Source: a virus
Length of the DNA stretch: 25,447 nucleotides
Reading direction: 5' to 3' (one strand)
IMG/VR virus record: IMGVR_UViG_3300025108_000346
Coordinates: 1 to 25,447 of that record
Within the stretch, counting starts at the first letter, position 1, and the number at the start of each line of letters is the position of its first letter. The translations under genes were made by a program, and so were the position numbers. Shown piece by piece: positions 1,699-12,345 of the stretch. Below the pieces are notes generated by a model, which did not search any database, was not told the origin of the DNA, and saw only the letters and a program-made list of their open reading frames with translations.

Positions 1699-1703
1699 GC
1701 ACA

Positions 1704-1841
1704 ATGGAAACTATAGACCTGCCCCCAACCCGTGAAGGTCACATCGTTTGTCTTAAAGCAATAATTCAAGGCAGTACTAATGCAGAAGATGTGGCATGGG
1801 CTAAAGAAGAACTAACTAAACTAGAGGAGCAAGTGCAATGA
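1704..1841 (+). CDS. Small hypothetical protein, 45 aa
   Basis: Preceded by AGGAGTAAGC (1691-1700) and ATG at 1704; it ends with TGA at 1839-1841, overlapping the ATG of the next gene at 1838. The 45-residue product has one predicted helix pair (IVCLKAIIQG, then AEDVAWAKEELTKLEEQVQ) and looks like a small helical protein, perhaps dimerising. No family is recognised. The leader and the overlap are the main evidence for coding. Confidence 0.5.
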   Translation: METIDLPPTREGHIVCLKAIIQGSTNAEDVAWAKEELTKLEEQVQ

Positions 1842-1981
1842 CTTTTCAAGTAAATAATTTAACTGAGTTTTTAGCGTGGGTAGAAGACTGCCCATATACT
1901 TTCACCATTTCTTCTATGAGCGGGGGGTTTGTACACGTTAAGTTTTTCATACCTTATGCTGCACCAGAAGAAACTAAGTAG
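1838..1981 (+). CDS. Small hypothetical protein, 47 aa
   Basis: AGGAGCAAGT (1825-1834) precedes the ATG at 1838. The 47-residue product has a helix-like start (NNLTEFLAWVEDCPYTFTI) and a strand-like centre (GGFVHVKFFIPYA), suggesting a tiny alpha/beta fold. No family is recognised. Its first four bases overlap the stop of the upstream gene, so translation is probably coupled. Confidence 0.5.
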   Translation: MTFQVNNLTEFLAWVEDCPYTFTISSMSGGFVHVKFFIPYAAPEETK

Positions 1982-1993
1982 GAGCAAGTGTAA

Positions 1994-2599: not shown

Positions 2600-2769
2600 C
2601 CGACGATAGAAAACTACTGCTCAAAGTTTTTGATTGTCTAATAGACACAGCAAAGAACCTCACTGATTTAGAAAATGTTTACAACGATAGTGACGATGAG
2701 TCTGTTTCGTGGGCTGAAGTGTATGAAGCAAGAGCGTTCTTGTTGAAAAAGGAGAAAGAATATGAATGA
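2596..2769 (+). CDS. Small acidic hypothetical protein, 57 aa, GTG start
   Basis: The start is a GTG at 2596 in a GTGA overlap with the preceding stop. The frame reads 57 residues to a TGA at 2767-2769 and overlaps the ATG of the next gene at 2762. The product is acidic and helical (RKLLLKVFDCLIDTAKNL, then DDESVSWAEVYEARAFLLKK). No family is recognised. The non-ATG start makes it easy to miss; coupling on both sides is the reason to call it. Confidence 0.45.
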   Translation: MTDDRKLLLKVFDCLIDTAKNLTDLENVYNDSDDESVSWAEVYEARAFLLKKEKEYE

Positions 2770-3055
2770 ACAGATAGAACATGTTATGTGTATAGCAAGG
2801 CAGGAAGACCTTAAAAAGCTACACCATTTCAGTATAGATTTAGCCTTGATGCAGGAAGAAGGAGGAACATTTGTGGGCTATAGTTGTTATGACACAGATG
2901 TTCTTGATGGTATCAAAGCTAAGGCTAGAACCATGCCTTATATAAACTCAGATGAACTAGAAGTAGTGAGTGTTATCTGGGCGCAACGCTTAAGAGGAAC
3001 AGGACTAGCCACTAGAATAAAGTATCACGCAGTACAAGTTGTAAGTTATCCTTAG
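2762..3055 (+). CDS. Hypothetical protein, 97 aa
   Basis: The ATG at 2762 follows AAAAAGGAGAAAGA, and the gene ends at TAG 3053-3055. The product has one helical half (LKKLHHFSIDLALMQE) and a strand-rich half (TFVGYSCYDTDVL; ELEVVSVIWAQRL), with three cysteines or fewer in no clear motif. I recognise no family. It is the last gene of the left-end small-gene block; its stop lies inside the first base pairs of the structured element that follows. Confidence 0.6.
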   Translation: MNEQIEHVMCIARQEDLKKLHHFSIDLALMQEEGGTFVGYSCYDTDVLDGIKAKARTMPYINSDELEVVSVIWAQRLRGTGLATRIKYHAVQVVSYP

Positions 3056-3175
3056 TTAGCCAGCCTTAGATACTCCAAGGGTGAGCAGGGACATCTTAAA
3101 ATACAATGCCTCGGGGAAAGGCTGGTGGGCGTAGTTAGCCCTTTCATATGCCCCTTAATTGTATTAATCCCTGCA
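3053..3175 (+). promoter_or_regulatory. Long foldable RNA element, possibly bistable
   Basis: Seen directly: four nested complementary blocks make an extended hairpin. 3085-3091 (GCAGGGA) pairs with 3168-3174. 3100-3107 (AATACAAT) pairs with 3058-type complement at 3158-3165. 3113-3116 (GGGG) pairs with 3151-3154. 3116-3123 pairs with 3137-3145 (GAAAGGCT against AGCCCTTTC, one bulge; G3116 is shared, so not all pairs coexist). A competing helix is possible: CCAGCCTT at 3060-3067 is perfectly complementary to AAGGCTGG at 3118-3125. The 9-mer TAGTTAGCC occurs both at 3053-3061 and 3132-3140, so two strands compete for one partner. The element begins at the stop of the last mini-gene and precedes the replication operon. 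A regulatory, switch-like role is inference, and I match it to no known RNA family. Confidence 0.5.
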
Positions 3176-3378
3176 CTTTATATTATGTATGCCTCCATTA
3201 TTTCTACAGAGTTCTACATAATTCCTTCACTATTGATACATAACAATGGAGAGAGTATGGAATGAAGTAATTAGTCTTTTTTTATGTGTGGTTGTCCAGT
3301 ACAATCATTTACATATTTCACAGATCAGTAATTATTTTTACTGAATTAATAAAACTAGAGTACAACAGGGACAATATT
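3176..3378 (+). other. Non-coding leader before the DUF932 gene
   Basis: No convincing gene is seen in this A+T-rich stretch. It holds a seven-base inverted repeat, CTCCATT at 3193-3199 and AATGGAG at 3245-3251, and a run of seven T at 3277-3283. A weak sigma-70-like pair, TTGATA at 3233-3238 and TATGGA at 3256-3261 with 17 bases between, could drive the downstream operon, but the -10 half is poor. TATTAT at 3181 is another possible -10. The frame of the next gene is open back to 3286, but the extension has no ribosome-binding site and a composition unlike the rest of the protein. Confidence 0.35.
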
Positions 3379-4347
3379 ATGAATAGTGACAGCAACATCC
3401 TTAGCTTTAACTCACACGTTAAAACAGAAGTACCCTCAGATAAAACCCCCTTAGCAAAGTTTGGTTTAGGTAGTTTAGAAAATGAATTACCAATCTATGC
3501 TTCTTCACCTGTGCATTTTAAATTGGGTGATGATGCAGAGATACTCACCAAATGTGCTGACCGTAAAGTCATTTACAATACTCGCAATGATCAAGTGATC
3601 AATGTAGTCAAGAAAAATTACAACATAGACTACCAACCAGCAGATGGTGTAAACATCATTGAAACAATGCTTGCTGGATCTGGTCTAGATTGTACTGACA
3701 TGACTAGAACATACGAGCAGTCGCATGAAGGAGCCAGATATGCAGTAATGTACACACTTCCTGCTCACACTATAGACTTAGGCAATGGTGATGTGTCTGC
3801 ATTGCAACTGGCACATAGAAACAGTGGTGATGGTAGCTGGTGCTTCACGCTTGAAGCTGGGGCTATCCGTATGATCTGCATGAATCGTCAAGTATCTATG
3901 GATTACTTCAGTCTGTTCAAGACTAAGCATACCCCCAGCATGTCACCTGAATATGGAGCTAGAAAAATAGCTGATGTACTTCAAGGGTTTGAGGCTGAGA
4001 AGGAACGCTGGACTGCATGGAAGAATCAATCCATCACTAACATGGAAGCATTCAAAATCTTTGCGGCAGCATCAAAGTTCAAGATAGATACTCAGTTGAC
4101 CTTGTCTGAATTGTTAGTTTCTACTAGCTACAGAAAGTCTAAGGCTATGCAGTTCATGTGGAATCGTTACACAACTGAAGAAGTTGTAGCACTTGGTTCT
4201 AATGAATGGGCTGCGTACAACGCGATGACAGGCTGGGCTACTCATGCTCCTGCTTCAACTGAACCTTCAAAAAAGAACATTGTATCCACTAAAGTTGATA
4301 GGGCGAATAGCGTAAGATCTGCTTGCACCTTGCTTAAAGCCGCTTAA
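3379..4347 (+). CDS. DUF932 phage/plasmid-like protein
   Basis: The 322-residue product fits the DUF932 family (the phage/plasmid-like TIGR03299 group), found widely in phages and plasmids and of unproven function. The recognisable parts are the central strand-rich region with HRNSGDGSWCFTLEAGAIRM, then ICMNRQVSMDYFSLFKTKH, and a helical C-terminal half. I place the start at the ATG at 3379, preceded by CAGGGACAATATT, because the same leader shape (CAGGGAACACTATT) precedes the primase-helicase ATG at 5502. No signal peptide is present. As the first gene of the replication operon it probably acts early or in DNA metabolism, but that is context only. Confidence 0.8.
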   Translation: MNSDSNILSFNSHVKTEVPSDKTPLAKFGLGSLENELPIYASSPVHFKLGDDAEILTKCADRKVIYNTRNDQVINVVKKNYNIDYQPADGVNIIETMLAGSGLDCTDMTRTYEQSHEGARYAVMYTLPAHTIDLGNGDVSALQLAHRNSGDGSWCFTLEAGAIRMICMNRQVSMDYFSLFKTKHTPSMSPEYGARKIADVLQGFEAEKERWTAWKNQSITNMEAFKIFAAASKFKIDTQLTLSELLVSTSYRKSKAMQFMWNRYTTEEVVALGSNEWAAYNAMTGWATHAPASTEPSKKNIVSTKVDRANSVRSACTLLKAA

Positions 4348-4592: not shown

Positions 4593-4801
4593 TCATTATG
4601 AATAAAGACCAGTGGCAACATTTTACATCGTTGTACGGTGAAGAGATGTACAAAGATAAACTAACTCACCGTACCAGACAATGTGATGAAGATCCTAACT
4701 CAATAGAAATAACTTTTGGGCAAGGTATCGAGCATAACGGCTATAACTTAGTCGAAGAGTACTTAACTTTTATAAAAAACCAAGGAAAAACAAATGGCTA
4801 A
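4589..4801 (+). CDS. Hypothetical protein, 70 aa
   Basis: CAGGGAGGACATAA precedes the ATG at 4589, which overlaps the upstream stop. A second in-frame ATG lies four codons on; the ribosome-binding-site spacing favours the first. The product is polar (KDQWQHFTSLYGEEMYKDKL, then IEITFGQGIEHNGYNLVEEYL). No family is recognised. It overlaps the SSB-like gene by eight bases and may be co-translated with it. Confidence 0.6.
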   Translation: MIIMNKDQWQHFTSLYGEEMYKDKLTHRTRQCDEDPNSIEITFGQGIEHNGYNLVEEYLTFIKNQGKTNG

Positions 4802-5255
4802 ATTATCAAACATTATTGAAGGTGGAAGTTATTTTGCAAAGGTCTACGATGCTGTTCCTGACTACAACGAAAAGCAGTCGCCGGGATCTGGAAAGTACCA
4901 GTGGGAAATTAACTTAGCAGTAGACAAGGAAATCTTTGAAGCTTTTGAGAATGAAGGATTCAATGCTGGTATGAAGGAAGCTGGGAGAGCGTCTTATACT
5001 GACAAGCCTGTTATTACTTTCTTGAAGTGGGCCAATGATTATAAAGGTAATCCTAATACTAACCCTCCTGTCATGGACATAGATAAGAACCTCCTTTCTA
5101 TTGAAGACAGGATAGAGAATGGCAGTACCGTTAGGGTTCAATGGAAAGCTTACGAGTATGGAAAGACTACTCGATACAAGCGTCCTATGTTGGTAGCTGT
5201 TCAAGTAGTAGAACTAAATGAACCTACTGTATCAGAAGATGAGGTGGCATTCTGA
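4794..5255 (+). CDS. Single-stranded DNA-binding protein, gp2.5-like
   Basis: The 153-residue product has strand-rich character consistent with an OB fold. It ends with an acidic tail closed by an aromatic residue (TVSEDEVAF). In T7 gp2.5 an acidic tail ending in Phe contacts the polymerase and the primase-helicase, and here the gene sits directly before those two replication genes. The N-terminal GGSYFAKVYDAVPDYNEK and the central TVRVQWKAYEYG look like core strands. Identification rests on size, tail and context; there is no unmistakable sequence signature. The gene ends in TGATGG, overlapping the next start by one base. Confidence 0.6.
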   Translation: MAKLSNIIEGGSYFAKVYDAVPDYNEKQSPGSGKYQWEINLAVDKEIFEAFENEGFNAGMKEAGRASYTDKPVITFLKWANDYKGNPNTNPPVMDIDKNLLSIEDRIENGSTVRVQWKAYEYGKTTRYKRPMLVAVQVVELNEPTVSEDEVAF

Positions 5256-5485
5256 TGGTAGAAAAAATTGTATTTGAAGGAAAGAACTATGACCTAGATA
5301 AGACTACTGAAGAAAATGCAGAGCTTATAAGAGGTCTTAGTCGGGTGATACAGAAAGTCCAGCTAGAGCTGCAAGACTGTGGCGATAAAACTTTAGCAGC
5401 GCAGACCGCGCTTACTGTTTTTTATAAGACATTGAGGGAGAAGCATCTTACTGAGGAAATGATTGAACAACCAGAACAACAGTAA
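5255..5485 (+). CDS. Small protein, DUF6447-like
   Basis: The 76-residue product starts with a short strand pair (VEKIVFEGKNYDLDKTT) followed by two long helices (ENAELIRGLSRVIQKVQLEL; KTLAAQTALTVFYKTLREKH). This layout, an 'I-x-G-x-x-Y-x-L' opening and then a helical hairpin, resembles the small phage DUF6447 proteins as I remember them; the match is weak and unverified. Function unknown. It lies between the SSB-like gene and the primase-helicase, with a one-base overlap on its left, so it is part of the replication operon. Confidence 0.55.
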   Translation: MVEKIVFEGKNYDLDKTTEENAELIRGLSRVIQKVQLELQDCGDKTLAAQTALTVFYKTLREKHLTEEMIEQPEQQ

Positions 5486-5501
5486 AACAGGGAACACTAT
5501 T

Positions 5502-7205
5502 ATGGAAGTAACCAACGAACCAAGATACAAAAATCAACACTTACCTTGTGTATCTTGTAATAGCAGTGATGCTCTATCAGAGTATATGAATGGCAGTGCT
5601 TACTGTTTTTCATGTGAAACAAGGTTTAGTCCTGCTGACTACAGTAAAGCAAGAGGAGGAGATGTTAGTAGTCTGCCCCCTGCCAGACCTAAACATAAAA
5701 TAAGTAAACCTAAAGGAGGAGAAATATCAGCTATAGAATCACGTAGCTTAACCCTAGCAACTGTTAAAAAGTTCAATGTCAAAGTAGTAAAGGATGAGCA
5801 TGGTAATGACATCAAACATTACTACCCTTACTACAATGGTGAAGAAGAAGTTATAAAGATAAGGGACGTTGAAAAGAAAAGGAACAATGAAGCTTTTCAG
5901 TTTGTATGGACTGATGGTGCTTCAAAGGTAGATTTGTTTGGTAAGCAACTGTTTGATGGAGGACAAAGGTTCGTTACTTTGTTTGAAGGTGAAATAGATG
6001 CAATGTCTGGTTATCAAATGCTCAACACCAGTGATACCAACTACGCTGTACTAGGAGTGAAGTCCTCTTCTGATGCAGAAAGAGCAGTACGCAACAACCT
6101 TGAGTACCTCTACTCCTTTGACAATGTAGTCCTTTGTTTTGATATGGATGAGCCGGGGCGTAAAGCTACTGACAAAGTAGCCAAGCTTCTTCAGACAGGT
6201 AAAACAAAGATAGTCTCACTCCCTTCTGACTTCAATGATGCTAATGAAATGCTCATGGCAGGACAACAAAAAGCATTTAAGGATGCTTGGTATGGAGCTA
6301 AAACCTATACACCTAGTGGTCTTGTATCTGTTAGTGATCATAAGAAGCGATACCTAGAACGTCCAACTAAACTATCTGTACCTTATCCTTGGCAAGGGCT
6401 TAATGAAAAGCTAGAAGGCTTACGTCAAGGTGAAATAATGATACTGACGGCGGGAACAGGGTTAGGTAAGAGTGCTGTATGTAGAGAGTTACAACACCAC
6501 TTACTTAAAACAACAGAAGACAACATAGGTATCGTCATGCTTGAAGAAAGCTATGAACGAACCATTGATGGTCTGATGTCTATTGAAGCTAATGAACGTC
6601 TATCGAAAGATAGTATAAGGGATACCTACGAGCTAGATCGACTCAGTGAATGGCATGATGCTTTGTTTGAAGGTGTAAACAAAAACAGGGTATGGGTGTA
6701 CGAACACTTTGGCGAGAACAATCTTTCTGCTATTGCCGATAGAGTTAAGTTCATGGCAGCAGGTTCAGAGTGTAAGTGGATCTTTATAGATCACATCCAC
6801 ATGATCAGTGCTGCAGGTGGAGACAATGAGACTGCTGAAATTAACAAGATCATGCATAAGTTCAGGGATCTATGTGAAGAACTAAACATATCTATTGTTA
6901 CTGTGTCTCACTTGAGAAGGCTTGATGGCAACAAGGGACATGAGAATGGAGCAGAGGTTAATCTATCTCACCTTAGAGGATCTCATGTAATTGCTCAAAT
7001 AGCTGACTCAGTTCTTGCTTTAGAACGTAATCAACAATCTGAAGATGAAGTACAAGCTAGAACTACACGACTCAGAGTTCTGAAAAACAGATACTCTGGT
7101 GAAGTAGGCGAGGCAGGTCATATTATTTATGATCCAGTGACAGGTAGACTAACAGAATGTGATGACAGTGATTTACAAATGAGTAATGAGGAGTCATTGA
7201 TATGA
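5502..7205 (+). CDS. Bifunctional DNA primase-helicase, T7 gp4-like
   Basis: The enzyme should synthesise RNA primers and unwind DNA as a hexamer at the fork. From the ATG at 5502 the 567 residues show, in order: a zinc-binding domain (C16, C19, C35, C38); a TOPRIM core with FEGEIDAM near residue 160 and DMDEPG near 214; a RecA-like helicase with Walker A GTGLGKS (318-324), Walker B WIFIDH (426-431) and the SHLRR motif (469-473); and a C-terminal acidic tail. The size is close to that of T7 gp4. The frame is open 13 codons further, but those lie inside the previous gene, and CAGGGAACACTATT before this ATG is the better start. It overlaps the polymerase gene (TGATATGAG). Confidence 0.95.
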   Translation: MEVTNEPRYKNQHLPCVSCNSSDALSEYMNGSAYCFSCETRFSPADYSKARGGDVSSLPPARPKHKISKPKGGEISAIESRSLTLATVKKFNVKVVKDEHGNDIKHYYPYYNGEEEVIKIRDVEKKRNNEAFQFVWTDGASKVDLFGKQLFDGGQRFVTLFEGEIDAMSGYQMLNTSDTNYAVLGVKSSSDAERAVRNNLEYLYSFDNVVLCFDMDEPGRKATDKVAKLLQTGKTKIVSLPSDFNDANEMLMAGQQKAFKDAWYGAKTYTPSGLVSVSDHKKRYLERPTKLSVPYPWQGLNEKLEGLRQGEIMILTAGTGLGKSAVCRELQHHLLKTTEDNIGIVMLEESYERTIDGLMSIEANERLSKDSIRDTYELDRLSEWHDALFEGVNKNRVWVYEHFGENNLSAIADRVKFMAAGSECKWIFIDHIHMISAAGGDNETAEINKIMHKFRDLCEELNISIVTVSHLRRLDGNKGHENGAEVNLSHLRGSHVIAQIADSVLALERNQQSEDEVQARTTRLRVLKNRYSGEVGEAGHIIYDPVTGRLTECDDSDLQMSNEESLI

Positions 7206-8962
7206 GTAAGCTGGTATTTGATGTAGAAACTGATGGGCTACAGTATACAAAAATATGGTGCATTGTTGCTCAAGATGTAGACACTGAAGAGATTCGTTCG
7301 TTTGGCCCTAGTGAGTTAGCAGAAGGTTTGGAGTACCTTAAAACTGCTGACACTTTAATAGGTCACAACATCCTTACCTTTGATATACCTTGTGTACGCA
7401 AAATACTAGACGATCCCTACTTTGCTAGGGATAAAGAGATACTAGACACCTTAGTTCTTTCTAGATTGTTTGGTGCTGATCGTGAGTCAGGTCATAAGCT
7501 TGCTGATTGGGGAAAGATTTTAGGCTTTCCTAAGATTGAGTTTGATGACTACAGCCATTACTCAGTGCAAATGTTGAAGTATTGTATTAGAGATGTGGAA
7601 TTAAACACTAAGGTATTCCATGAACTTAGAAGTGAAGCAAAAGGATTCAGCAGACAGTGTATTGACCTAGAGCATAAAGTTGCTGAGATCTTAGGTGAGC
7701 AAGAACGCTATGGTTTTTTATTAGACTTTAATAAAGCAGGAGATATTCACGCTGAGTTAGGCAATGCAATTATTAAAACTGAGAAAAGGATTCACGAAGT
7801 ATTCAAACCTAAGAACAAAGAAACCAAGCTGTACCCTAAGTACAAGAAAGATGGTAGTGCTGCAAGGAATGCAATAACTGAAAATGGAGAAGGCACAAGA
7901 CTAAGTGATGTTGAGTTTGCTGAAATGCAGCAGTCAGGTACTAAGCATGTAGTCCGAACAGAAGTTAAAGAACTTAATATTTCTTCTAGGCAGCAGCTTA
8001 TTGAGTACTTAAAAGACTTTGGATGGAAACCACGTAAGTTTACTAAGAAAGGTAATGTCATCTTAAATGAAAAAATACTTGAGGAGATTACTGATATACC
8101 AGAAGCTGCTTACATCCAGAAGTACTTCCTATTGCAAAAGCGTATTACTCAGCTTAACTCTTGGATTAAAGAAGCTGACTCAGCTACGTTCAGAGTACAC
8201 AGTCATGTGATTCACAATGGTACTGTAACAGGACGCATGACACATCGTAGTCCCAACATGGCACAGGTTCCTAGTGTATCTGTTCCCTATGGTAAGGCTT
8301 TCAGGGGTTGCTGGCGAGTACCAGATAAGTACAAGTTAGTTGGTATAGATGCTAGTGGGCTTGAGTTAAGAATGCTGGCTCACTACATGAATGATGAGGA
8401 TTACATTAATGAAATTATCTCAGGAGATATCCACACAGCTAACCAAAAACTTGCAGGACTTAAATCAAGAGATCAGGCAAAGACATTCATCTATTCGCTT
8501 TTGTACGGGGCAGGAGATGAAAAGCTTGGGTCAGTGGCTGGAGGAAACAAAGACACTGGTGCAAAACTTAGAAAATCTTTCTTCGATAATCTACCTGCAT
8601 TTGCAAATCTTAGAAACAGAGTATCAAGAACTGTCCAAAAAAATGGATGTCTCAAAGGACTAGACGGTAGGAAGTTAAAAATTAGAAGTGAGCATAGTGC
8701 TTTGAATGCTTTGCTGCAGGGAGCAGGAGCTATTGTAATGAAAGAAGCTCTTGTGATATTGAATAACAAACTAGCAGTATATGACGCACACTTTGTAGCT
8801 AACGTACATGATGAGTGGCAGATAGAAGTAGTCGAAGAAGATGCAGATTATGTTGGGCAGTTAGGAGTAGAAGCTATAGAAGAGGCAGGTGTCTCTTTAA
8901 ACTTACACTGCCCCTTAACTGGTGAATATAAAGTAGGTGATAACTGGAGTGATACACACTAA
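7202..8962 (+). CDS. Family A DNA polymerase, T7 gp5-like
   Basis: The replicative polymerase has 586 residues, about 120 fewer than T7 gp5. The 3'-5' exonuclease is intact: FDVETDG with D7 and E9, GHNILTFD with N56 and D61, and YCIRD with Y127 and D131. The polymerase domain carries TGRMTHRSPNMAQVPS, motif A GIDASGLELR (D383), motif B RDQAKTFIYSLLYGAG (R423, K427, Y431) and motif C VHDEW (H536, D537, E538). Y431 corresponds to E. coli Pol I position 762 and T7 Y526; tyrosine there is typical of lytic T7-type phages. Its ATG overlaps the primase-helicase stop and its TAA overlaps the nuclease start. It may need a host processivity factor such as thioredoxin; none is encoded here. Confidence 0.95.
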   Translation: MSKLVFDVETDGLQYTKIWCIVAQDVDTEEIRSFGPSELAEGLEYLKTADTLIGHNILTFDIPCVRKILDDPYFARDKEILDTLVLSRLFGADRESGHKLADWGKILGFPKIEFDDYSHYSVQMLKYCIRDVELNTKVFHELRSEAKGFSRQCIDLEHKVAEILGEQERYGFLLDFNKAGDIHAELGNAIIKTEKRIHEVFKPKNKETKLYPKYKKDGSAARNAITENGEGTRLSDVEFAEMQQSGTKHVVRTEVKELNISSRQQLIEYLKDFGWKPRKFTKKGNVILNEKILEEITDIPEAAYIQKYFLLQKRITQLNSWIKEADSATFRVHSHVIHNGTVTGRMTHRSPNMAQVPSVSVPYGKAFRGCWRVPDKYKLVGIDASGLELRMLAHYMNDEDYINEIISGDIHTANQKLAGLKSRDQAKTFIYSLLYGAGDEKLGSVAGGNKDTGAKLRKSFFDNLPAFANLRNRVSRTVQKNGCLKGLDGRKLKIRSEHSALNALLQGAGAIVMKEALVILNNKLAVYDAHFVANVHDEWQIEVVEEDADYVGQLGVEAIEEAGVSLNLHCPLTGEYKVGDNWSDTH

Positions 8963-12227: not shown

Positions 12228-12243
12228 AAAGACTCCTTTAAAC

Positions 12244-12259
12244 TGTTTCATGTGAAACT
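12244..12259. promoter_or_regulatory. parS-like palindrome
   Basis: The 14-base core at 12245-12258 reads GTTTCATGTGAAAC. The bacterial parS core bound by chromosomal ParB is GTTTCACGTGAAAC, so there is a single central difference; one outer base also differs. It is nearly a perfect inverted repeat. It lies between the lipoprotein start and a foldable G+C-rich element. ParB binding is not shown, and a repressor operator or chance are alternatives; the site also overlaps a discarded in-frame ATG of the lipoprotein gene. Confidence 0.35.
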
Positions 12260-12277
12260 TCTTTGTAATGCGGCCTT

Positions 12278-12328
12278 TGACGCACCTGACCGCGAGGCTG
12301 TGAGGGACATGAATGAAACCTGCGTCAG
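12278..12328 (-). promoter_or_regulatory. G+C-rich foldable intergenic element
   Basis: In an otherwise A+T-rich genome this stretch is rich in G and C. Two mutually exclusive stems share the same right arm: TGACGCA at 12278-12284 with TGCGTCA at 12321-12327 (7 perfect pairs), or a longer stem at 12286-12297 with 12319-12328 (CTGAC, GC and AGG pair with CCT, GC and GTCAG, two single-base bulges). No U-run follows on either strand, so a classical terminator is unlikely. It lies in the gap between two minus-strand genes and could be a leader structure, RNA-processing site or protein-binding site. Confidence 0.4.
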
Positions 12329-12345
12329 TTAAATTTCAACACATA

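Follow-up and report, generated by a model that had tools for sequence, protein, structure and literature searches.

What is encoded in the 323-base gap between the gene for a 97-aa protein (2762-3055) and the DUF932 gene (3379-4347)? The window, by which we mean the whole stretch of DNA analysed, comprises 25,447 nt (positions 1 to 25,447 of IMG/VR record IMGVR_UViG_3300025108_000346) and is apparently a fragment of an uncultured phage, whose replication genes occupy the + strand and whose structural genes occupy the - strand. The first-pass annotation had placed in this gap a structured RNA in front of the replication operon, drawn as a long nested hairpin with two helices competing for one arm, as in a switch or attenuator. 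It had also called the gap the only long one of the plus-strand arm; a second stretch of about 295 bases at 1699-1993 (+) has no ORF of at least 50 aa, so the gap may not be the only one.

Inspection of the window confirmed that GCAGGGA (3085-3091) can pair with TCCCTGC (3168-3174) and AATACAAT (3100-3107) with ATTGTATT (3158-3165), and that CCAGCCTT (3060-3067) is the exact complement of AAGGCTGG (3118-3125), a match which extends to 9 bp with G3059.U3126. The repeated 9-mer TAGTTAGCC was found at 3053-3061 and 3132-3140, as described. Statistics from the window sequence alone gave weak support to the structure. When the minimum free energy was compared with shuffled sequence, the nested fold of 3040-3180 was no more stable than the shuffles (z = -0.68), and 3053-3175 and 3083-3176 gave z = -1.11 and -2.50. 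Watson-Crick helices of at least 8 bp appeared in 38 of 300 dinucleotide shuffles (13%), and helices of at least 9 bp with G.U allowed in 164 of 300.

Relatives were obtained from protein and pattern scans of viral contigs (IMG/VR), giving eight distinct element sequences (window, L002, L003, L021, L046, L047, L051 and L161; the gap of L001 is identical to the window gap). All eight lie between homologous genes, with the same upstream gene on one side and DUF932 on the other, 0-4 nt separate the stop codon from the first paired strand (P1), and the gap is about 297-320 nt. The DUF932 proteins of the members are about 50% identical. The upstream proteins are about 20% identical and are the fastest-changing part of the locus, despite which the family has a conserved I.Y...V..YP-like motif at the protein end. 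An AlphaFold model of the 97-aa protein (pLDDT 80, fairly confident) gave no significant fold match, to an RNA-binding fold or any other. As the first-pass annotation had supposed, the gap is not coding, there being no conserved reading frame across the relatives. Stop-codon readthrough into a hidden ORF was also rejected: the window frame is open for 69 codons past the TAG and is broken by stops in more distant relatives.

Comparison of the homologous gaps, in a segment alignment of the eight sequences checked against the source sequences, revealed crossing helices that covary, and bore out the structured RNA in front of the replication operon. All three helices named above are supported across the eight relatives. 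In P1 (3059-3067/3118-3126), 72 of 72 cells are paired and six of the nine pairs are changed on both sides (for example GCCAGCCTT/AAGGCTGGT in the window, GCCAACTTC/GAAGTTGGT in L046 and GTTAGCCTT/AAGGCTAAC in L047), with a covariation score of 0.643; shuffles gave 0.363 and slid versions no more than 0.310. On the helicase-protein tree, P1 underwent 13 pair-state changes, about 10 of them double-sided, and was never unpaired; eight sequences are few and two groups are close kin, and the changes are spread over the tree. For the whole structure, scored on a MAFFT alignment, 98.7% of cells are paired versus 89.3% in shuffles, and 13 pairs show two-sided change (covariation score 0.443; shuffles 0.236, slides at most 0.168). 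G.U pairs occur in P1, P4 and P7, which fits a + strand RNA.

Two of the inner pairings changed on comparison. The helix proposed at 3113-3116/3151-3154 exists, with its partner shifted by one base to 3152-3155 (91% of cells paired, versus 53% with 3151-3154). The innermost one (3116-3123/3137-3145), which would exclude P1, was paired in 65.6% of cells, a value that did not exceed that of a one-column slide, and was not supported. The 3' strand of P1 lies inside the loop closed by P4, so that P1 crosses P2, P3 and P4, each with double-sided changes, and two crossing helices with compensatory change in both are what defines an H-type pseudoknot. The supposed competition for one arm was not upheld: no base is common to P1 and the P2-P3-P4 ladder, each of which covaries, and the simplest reading is therefore one pseudoknot. 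Comparison thus shows the first domain, 3059-3174 (116 nt), as a predicted H-type pseudoknot with a small embedded hairpin (P5), which is G-rich/C-rich in 8 of 8 members. Comparison alone could hardly make this predicted structure more certain. It also illustrates how a single-sequence fold can mislead, the weak-looking second helix (P1) being the best-supported part.

Table 1. Genes and predicted RNA elements around the gap (positions in the window).
Feature	Position	Strand	Evidence or remark
Upstream gene, 97 aa, no known family	2762-3055	+	homologues of 89-97 aa 5' of the RNA in 8/8 members
P1 5' strand, GCCAGCCTT	3059-3067	+	begins 3 nt past the upstream TAG
Linker P1-P2, ending in near-invariant AAGGTGA / AGGGTGA	3068-3084	+	alignment
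P2 5' strand, GCAGGGA	3085-3091	+	pairs with 3168-3174 in 56/56 cells; compensatory change, C-G to U-A
Conserved unpaired CATCTTAA between P2 and P3	3092-3099	+	alignment
P3 5' strand, AATACAAT	3100-3107	+	pairs with 3158-3165 in 64/64 cells; compensatory change at two pairs
P4 5' strand, partner 3152-3157	3111-3116	+	44/48 cells paired, several pair types
P1 3' strand, AAGGCTGGT, within the P4-closed loop	3118-3126	+	covariation with 3059-3067
P5, small hairpin in the last pseudoknot loop, GGGC...GCCC (GGGTG...CACCC in L003)	3127-3141	+	
Junction with conserved TTTCAT	3142-3151	+	alignment
P4 3' strand	3152-3157	+	pairing with 3111-3116
P3 3' strand, ATTGTATT	3158-3165	+	pairing with 3100-3107
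P2 3' strand, TCCCTGC, last strand of the pseudoknot domain	3168-3174	+	pairing with 3085-3091
Second domain: P6 (3194-3198/3257-3261) enclosing P7	3194-3261	+	conserved pairing
P7	3225-3227/3251-3253 and 3230-3235/3244-3249	+	compensatory changes
Third hairpin, CAGTAA/TTACTG (CAATAA/TTATTG in others)	3326-3343	+	8/8 members
DUF932 gene, first of the replication operon	3379-4347	+	Pfam PF06067, E 1e-18
Gp2.5-like single-strand-binding protein, weak match	4794-5255	+	phrog_112, E 3e-4
Primase/helicase	5463-7205	+	phrog_239, E 1e-161
DNA polymerase	7202-8962	+	phrog_17, E 1e-136

Conserved pairing continues beyond the pseudoknot (Table 1), and the gap is shown by comparison to encode a two-domain RNA, predicted to span about 3059-3261. 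P6 is paired in 40 of 40 cells with an invariant sequence and P7 in 71 of 72 cells, and the minimum-free-energy fold of the window yields largely these two helices. The third hairpin stands within the AT-rich leader just 5' of the DUF932 gene. A run of seven T at 3277-3283 is confined to three sequences (those of the window, L002 and L003), where pairing with 3113-3126 would be possible.

The RNA is a previously undescribed family of a phage clade, with a fold of known kind. All contigs of the helicase clade that were found to extend far enough upstream carry it, and each record searched has a single convincing copy. When a covariance model was built from the nested helices, the members scored 111-133 bits; the same model found nothing convincing at DUF932 loci of other lineages, and no match came from about 50 related loci that lack the element. 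The first-pass annotation knew of no described family that fits, and a search of Rfam 15 (4227 models) with the window and four relatives agreed, giving no match at gathering scores; at E up to 10 only chance hits to yeast-type snoRNAs were obtained, outside the pseudoknot. No isolated or sequenced phage was found by DNA search, and none with the DUF932 protein. The motif GGTGAGYAGGGACATCT occurred in 61 stretches of 84,980 bacterial and archaeal genomes, by estimate about the number due to chance, none of them with the P2 closing strand, and pattern searches for further relatives returned chance hits only. As read from the IMG/VR sample context and from a distant helicase kinship with pelagiphages and roseophages, per contig names, the clade appears to be marine. 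In this way, an uncultured marine phage lineage gains a structured RNA that is well supported and has no counterpart in Rfam 15.

The position of the RNA, its fixed spacing, the lack of a terminator in the window and the lack of the strong sigma70-like promoter seen in many RNA-free relatives suggest a cis-acting part of a read-through transcript. We give a probability of about 0.5 to the reading that the two-domain RNA, carried in such a transcript, sets in cis the expression of the replication operon behind it. The RNA would be made as the early genes are read through into the operon, would bind, as a receptor, a phage or host protein, a ligand or RNA polymerase, and would in this way set the expression of the genes for DUF932, the SSB-like protein, primase/helicase and DNA polymerase. 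A scan of the window (3141-3378, + strand) found no intrinsic terminator between the RNA and the operon; a nearby match at 3120-3140 is not a conserved helix and is without a clear U run. The best sigma70-like promoter before DUF932 scored on average 6.4 at loci with the RNA (at least 9 in 0 of 7) and 8.2 at loci without it (at least 9 in 12 of 54), in scans that assume sigma70 and in a comparison that is not independent, many of the 54 control loci being near-duplicates. Together, the missing terminator and the lack of a strong sigma70-like promoter at RNA-bearing loci fit read-through. A sigma70 promoter driving the RNA itself was considered and rejected, the candidates being weak and differing between members. 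A strong sigma70-like promoter (e.g., TTGACT-17-TAAAAT) was often seen directly 5' of DUF932 in phages lacking the RNA, at L056, L009, L063, L069 and similar loci. Against a leader role, about 205 nt separate the end of the pseudoknot from the DUF932 start, and the knot does not itself cover the ribosome-binding site. If the RNA is cis-acting, expression would be controlled at an RNA stage between the early genes and those for replication, in phages where a search of window genes turned up no RNA polymerase gene.

Several known RNAs offer a comparison for such a cis-acting role. The translational operator of T4 gene 32 is a pseudoknot of about 28 nt that is bound by the phage SSB protein and adjoins the ribosome-binding region of the SSB gene (PMC535899). 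Our RNA resembles it in that it, too, is a pseudoknot of a phage, has AU-rich RNA after it and precedes replication genes, one of them for an SSB-like protein. However, it measures 116 nt, has extra helices plus a second domain, and is far from the position directly 5' of the ribosome-binding site of an SSB gene: the knot ends at 3174, DUF932 starts about 205 nt further on (3379) and the SSB-like gene about 1.6 kb further on (4794). Three-stemmed pseudoknot aptamers such as preQ1-II are H-type pseudoknots with a loop-embedded hairpin in an mRNA leader. The phage RNA shares this fold and would likewise lie in an mRNA leader, but has a longer ladder (P2, P3 and P4), precedes genes for replication and not queuosine, and gave no match to the Rfam model of the conserved preQ1-II aptamer. 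Because the defining position of the operator and the defining sequence of the aptamers (for a review, PMC11625349) are both lacking, the phage RNA falls outside the two groups; by analogy, it perhaps works like one of them. Processive antitermination RNAs (HK022 put, Bacillus EAR) are structured RNAs near the start of an operon or inside it that bring about read-through by host RNA polymerase, which they convert in cis to a terminator-resistant form. The phage RNA is likewise structured and near or in an operon, with read-through proposed here; unlike EAR, a described family, it has no Rfam match, and the likeness would be one of position and structure. It is possible, though unlikely, that the RNA represents a new functional class, a cis pseudoknot that would modify host RNA polymerase in a put-like manner, or be gated by the ribosome as it finishes translating the upstream gene 0-4 nt short of P1, and would thus let early transcription continue into the replication operon with no dedicated promoter.

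Alternatively, the pseudoknot might be processed or transcribed separately and act in trans on host or phage targets, an option which we regard as unlikely but worth serious consideration. Its compact structure would suit such a role, as would the unpaired stretches GGTGAG, CATCT, TTTCAT and CTACA, which are nearly invariant while the neighbouring genes diverge. However, neither a dedicated promoter nor a terminator-like site bounds the pseudoknot, its place before one operon never varies, and each record searched holds one copy.

A role as 3' element of the upstream gene, with a stable knot after the stop codon protecting or processing the 3' end of an early message, appears rather improbable. 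P1 starts within 4 nt of the stop codon in 8 of 8 members, all of which have the homologous upstream gene, so position alone cannot separate leader from 3' element. The upstream protein, however, is the fastest-changing part of the locus, and conserved structure continues to 3261 and appears again at 3326-3343, near the next gene.

We consider it improbable that 3118-3125 is shared by two mutually exclusive folds, as in an attenuator or riboswitch. TTAGCC is present twice in the window, and RNAalifold also draws a weaker local hairpin of the P1 5' strand with AAGGTG (about 3063-3067/3077-3082), which is possible early in transcription. But this hairpin shows no compensatory change, the inner helix of the proposed switch is not conserved, and P1 is the strongest partner of the arm in every member (-11.4 to -16.8 kcal/mol), the TTAGCC-type competitors being weaker and confined to some members. 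Since the window scan found no intrinsic terminator 3' of the RNA, either competing or otherwise, a classical attenuator is not indicated and a terminator riboswitch was rejected.

A DNA-level element, either a replication origin or its primer RNA, is very improbable: the site precedes the replication genes, with AT-rich sequence at 3175-3378 (GC 0.26-0.31), but crossing helices that covary and contain G.U pairs speak for RNA, and the sign of the GC skew switches together with gene direction at about 12 kb and not at the RNA gap. HDV-like (theta) ribozymes occur in phages (PMC10879173), and the present RNA likewise comes from a phage and has a P1 that crosses P2 and starts with a 5' G, mostly in a G.U pair, but self-cleavage 5' of P1, as in these ribozymes, can hardly be entertained, as only 1 nt separates P4 from the P1 3' strand in 8 of 8 members, leaving no room for the P3 hairpin expected between the P2 5' strand and the P1 3' strand, no tRNA lies near the pseudoknot and no Rfam ribozyme model matches. 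A type III toxin-antitoxin RNA, with tandem short pseudoknot repeats before a toxin gene, was also rejected, the element being single in each record and without tandem repeat.

The intergenic stretch 12230-12345, in the - strand arm, contains the inverted repeat TGACGCA...TGCGTCA; neither strand of this stretch folded better than shuffles. A two-mismatch parS-like match was detected inside the helicase gene (5606-5621), where chance or coding is the likely cause. Another such site, the palindrome TGTTTCATGTGAAACT at 12244-12259, which is presumably two mismatches from the bacterial parS consensus, lies in or adjoins the intergenic stretch at about 12252-12345.
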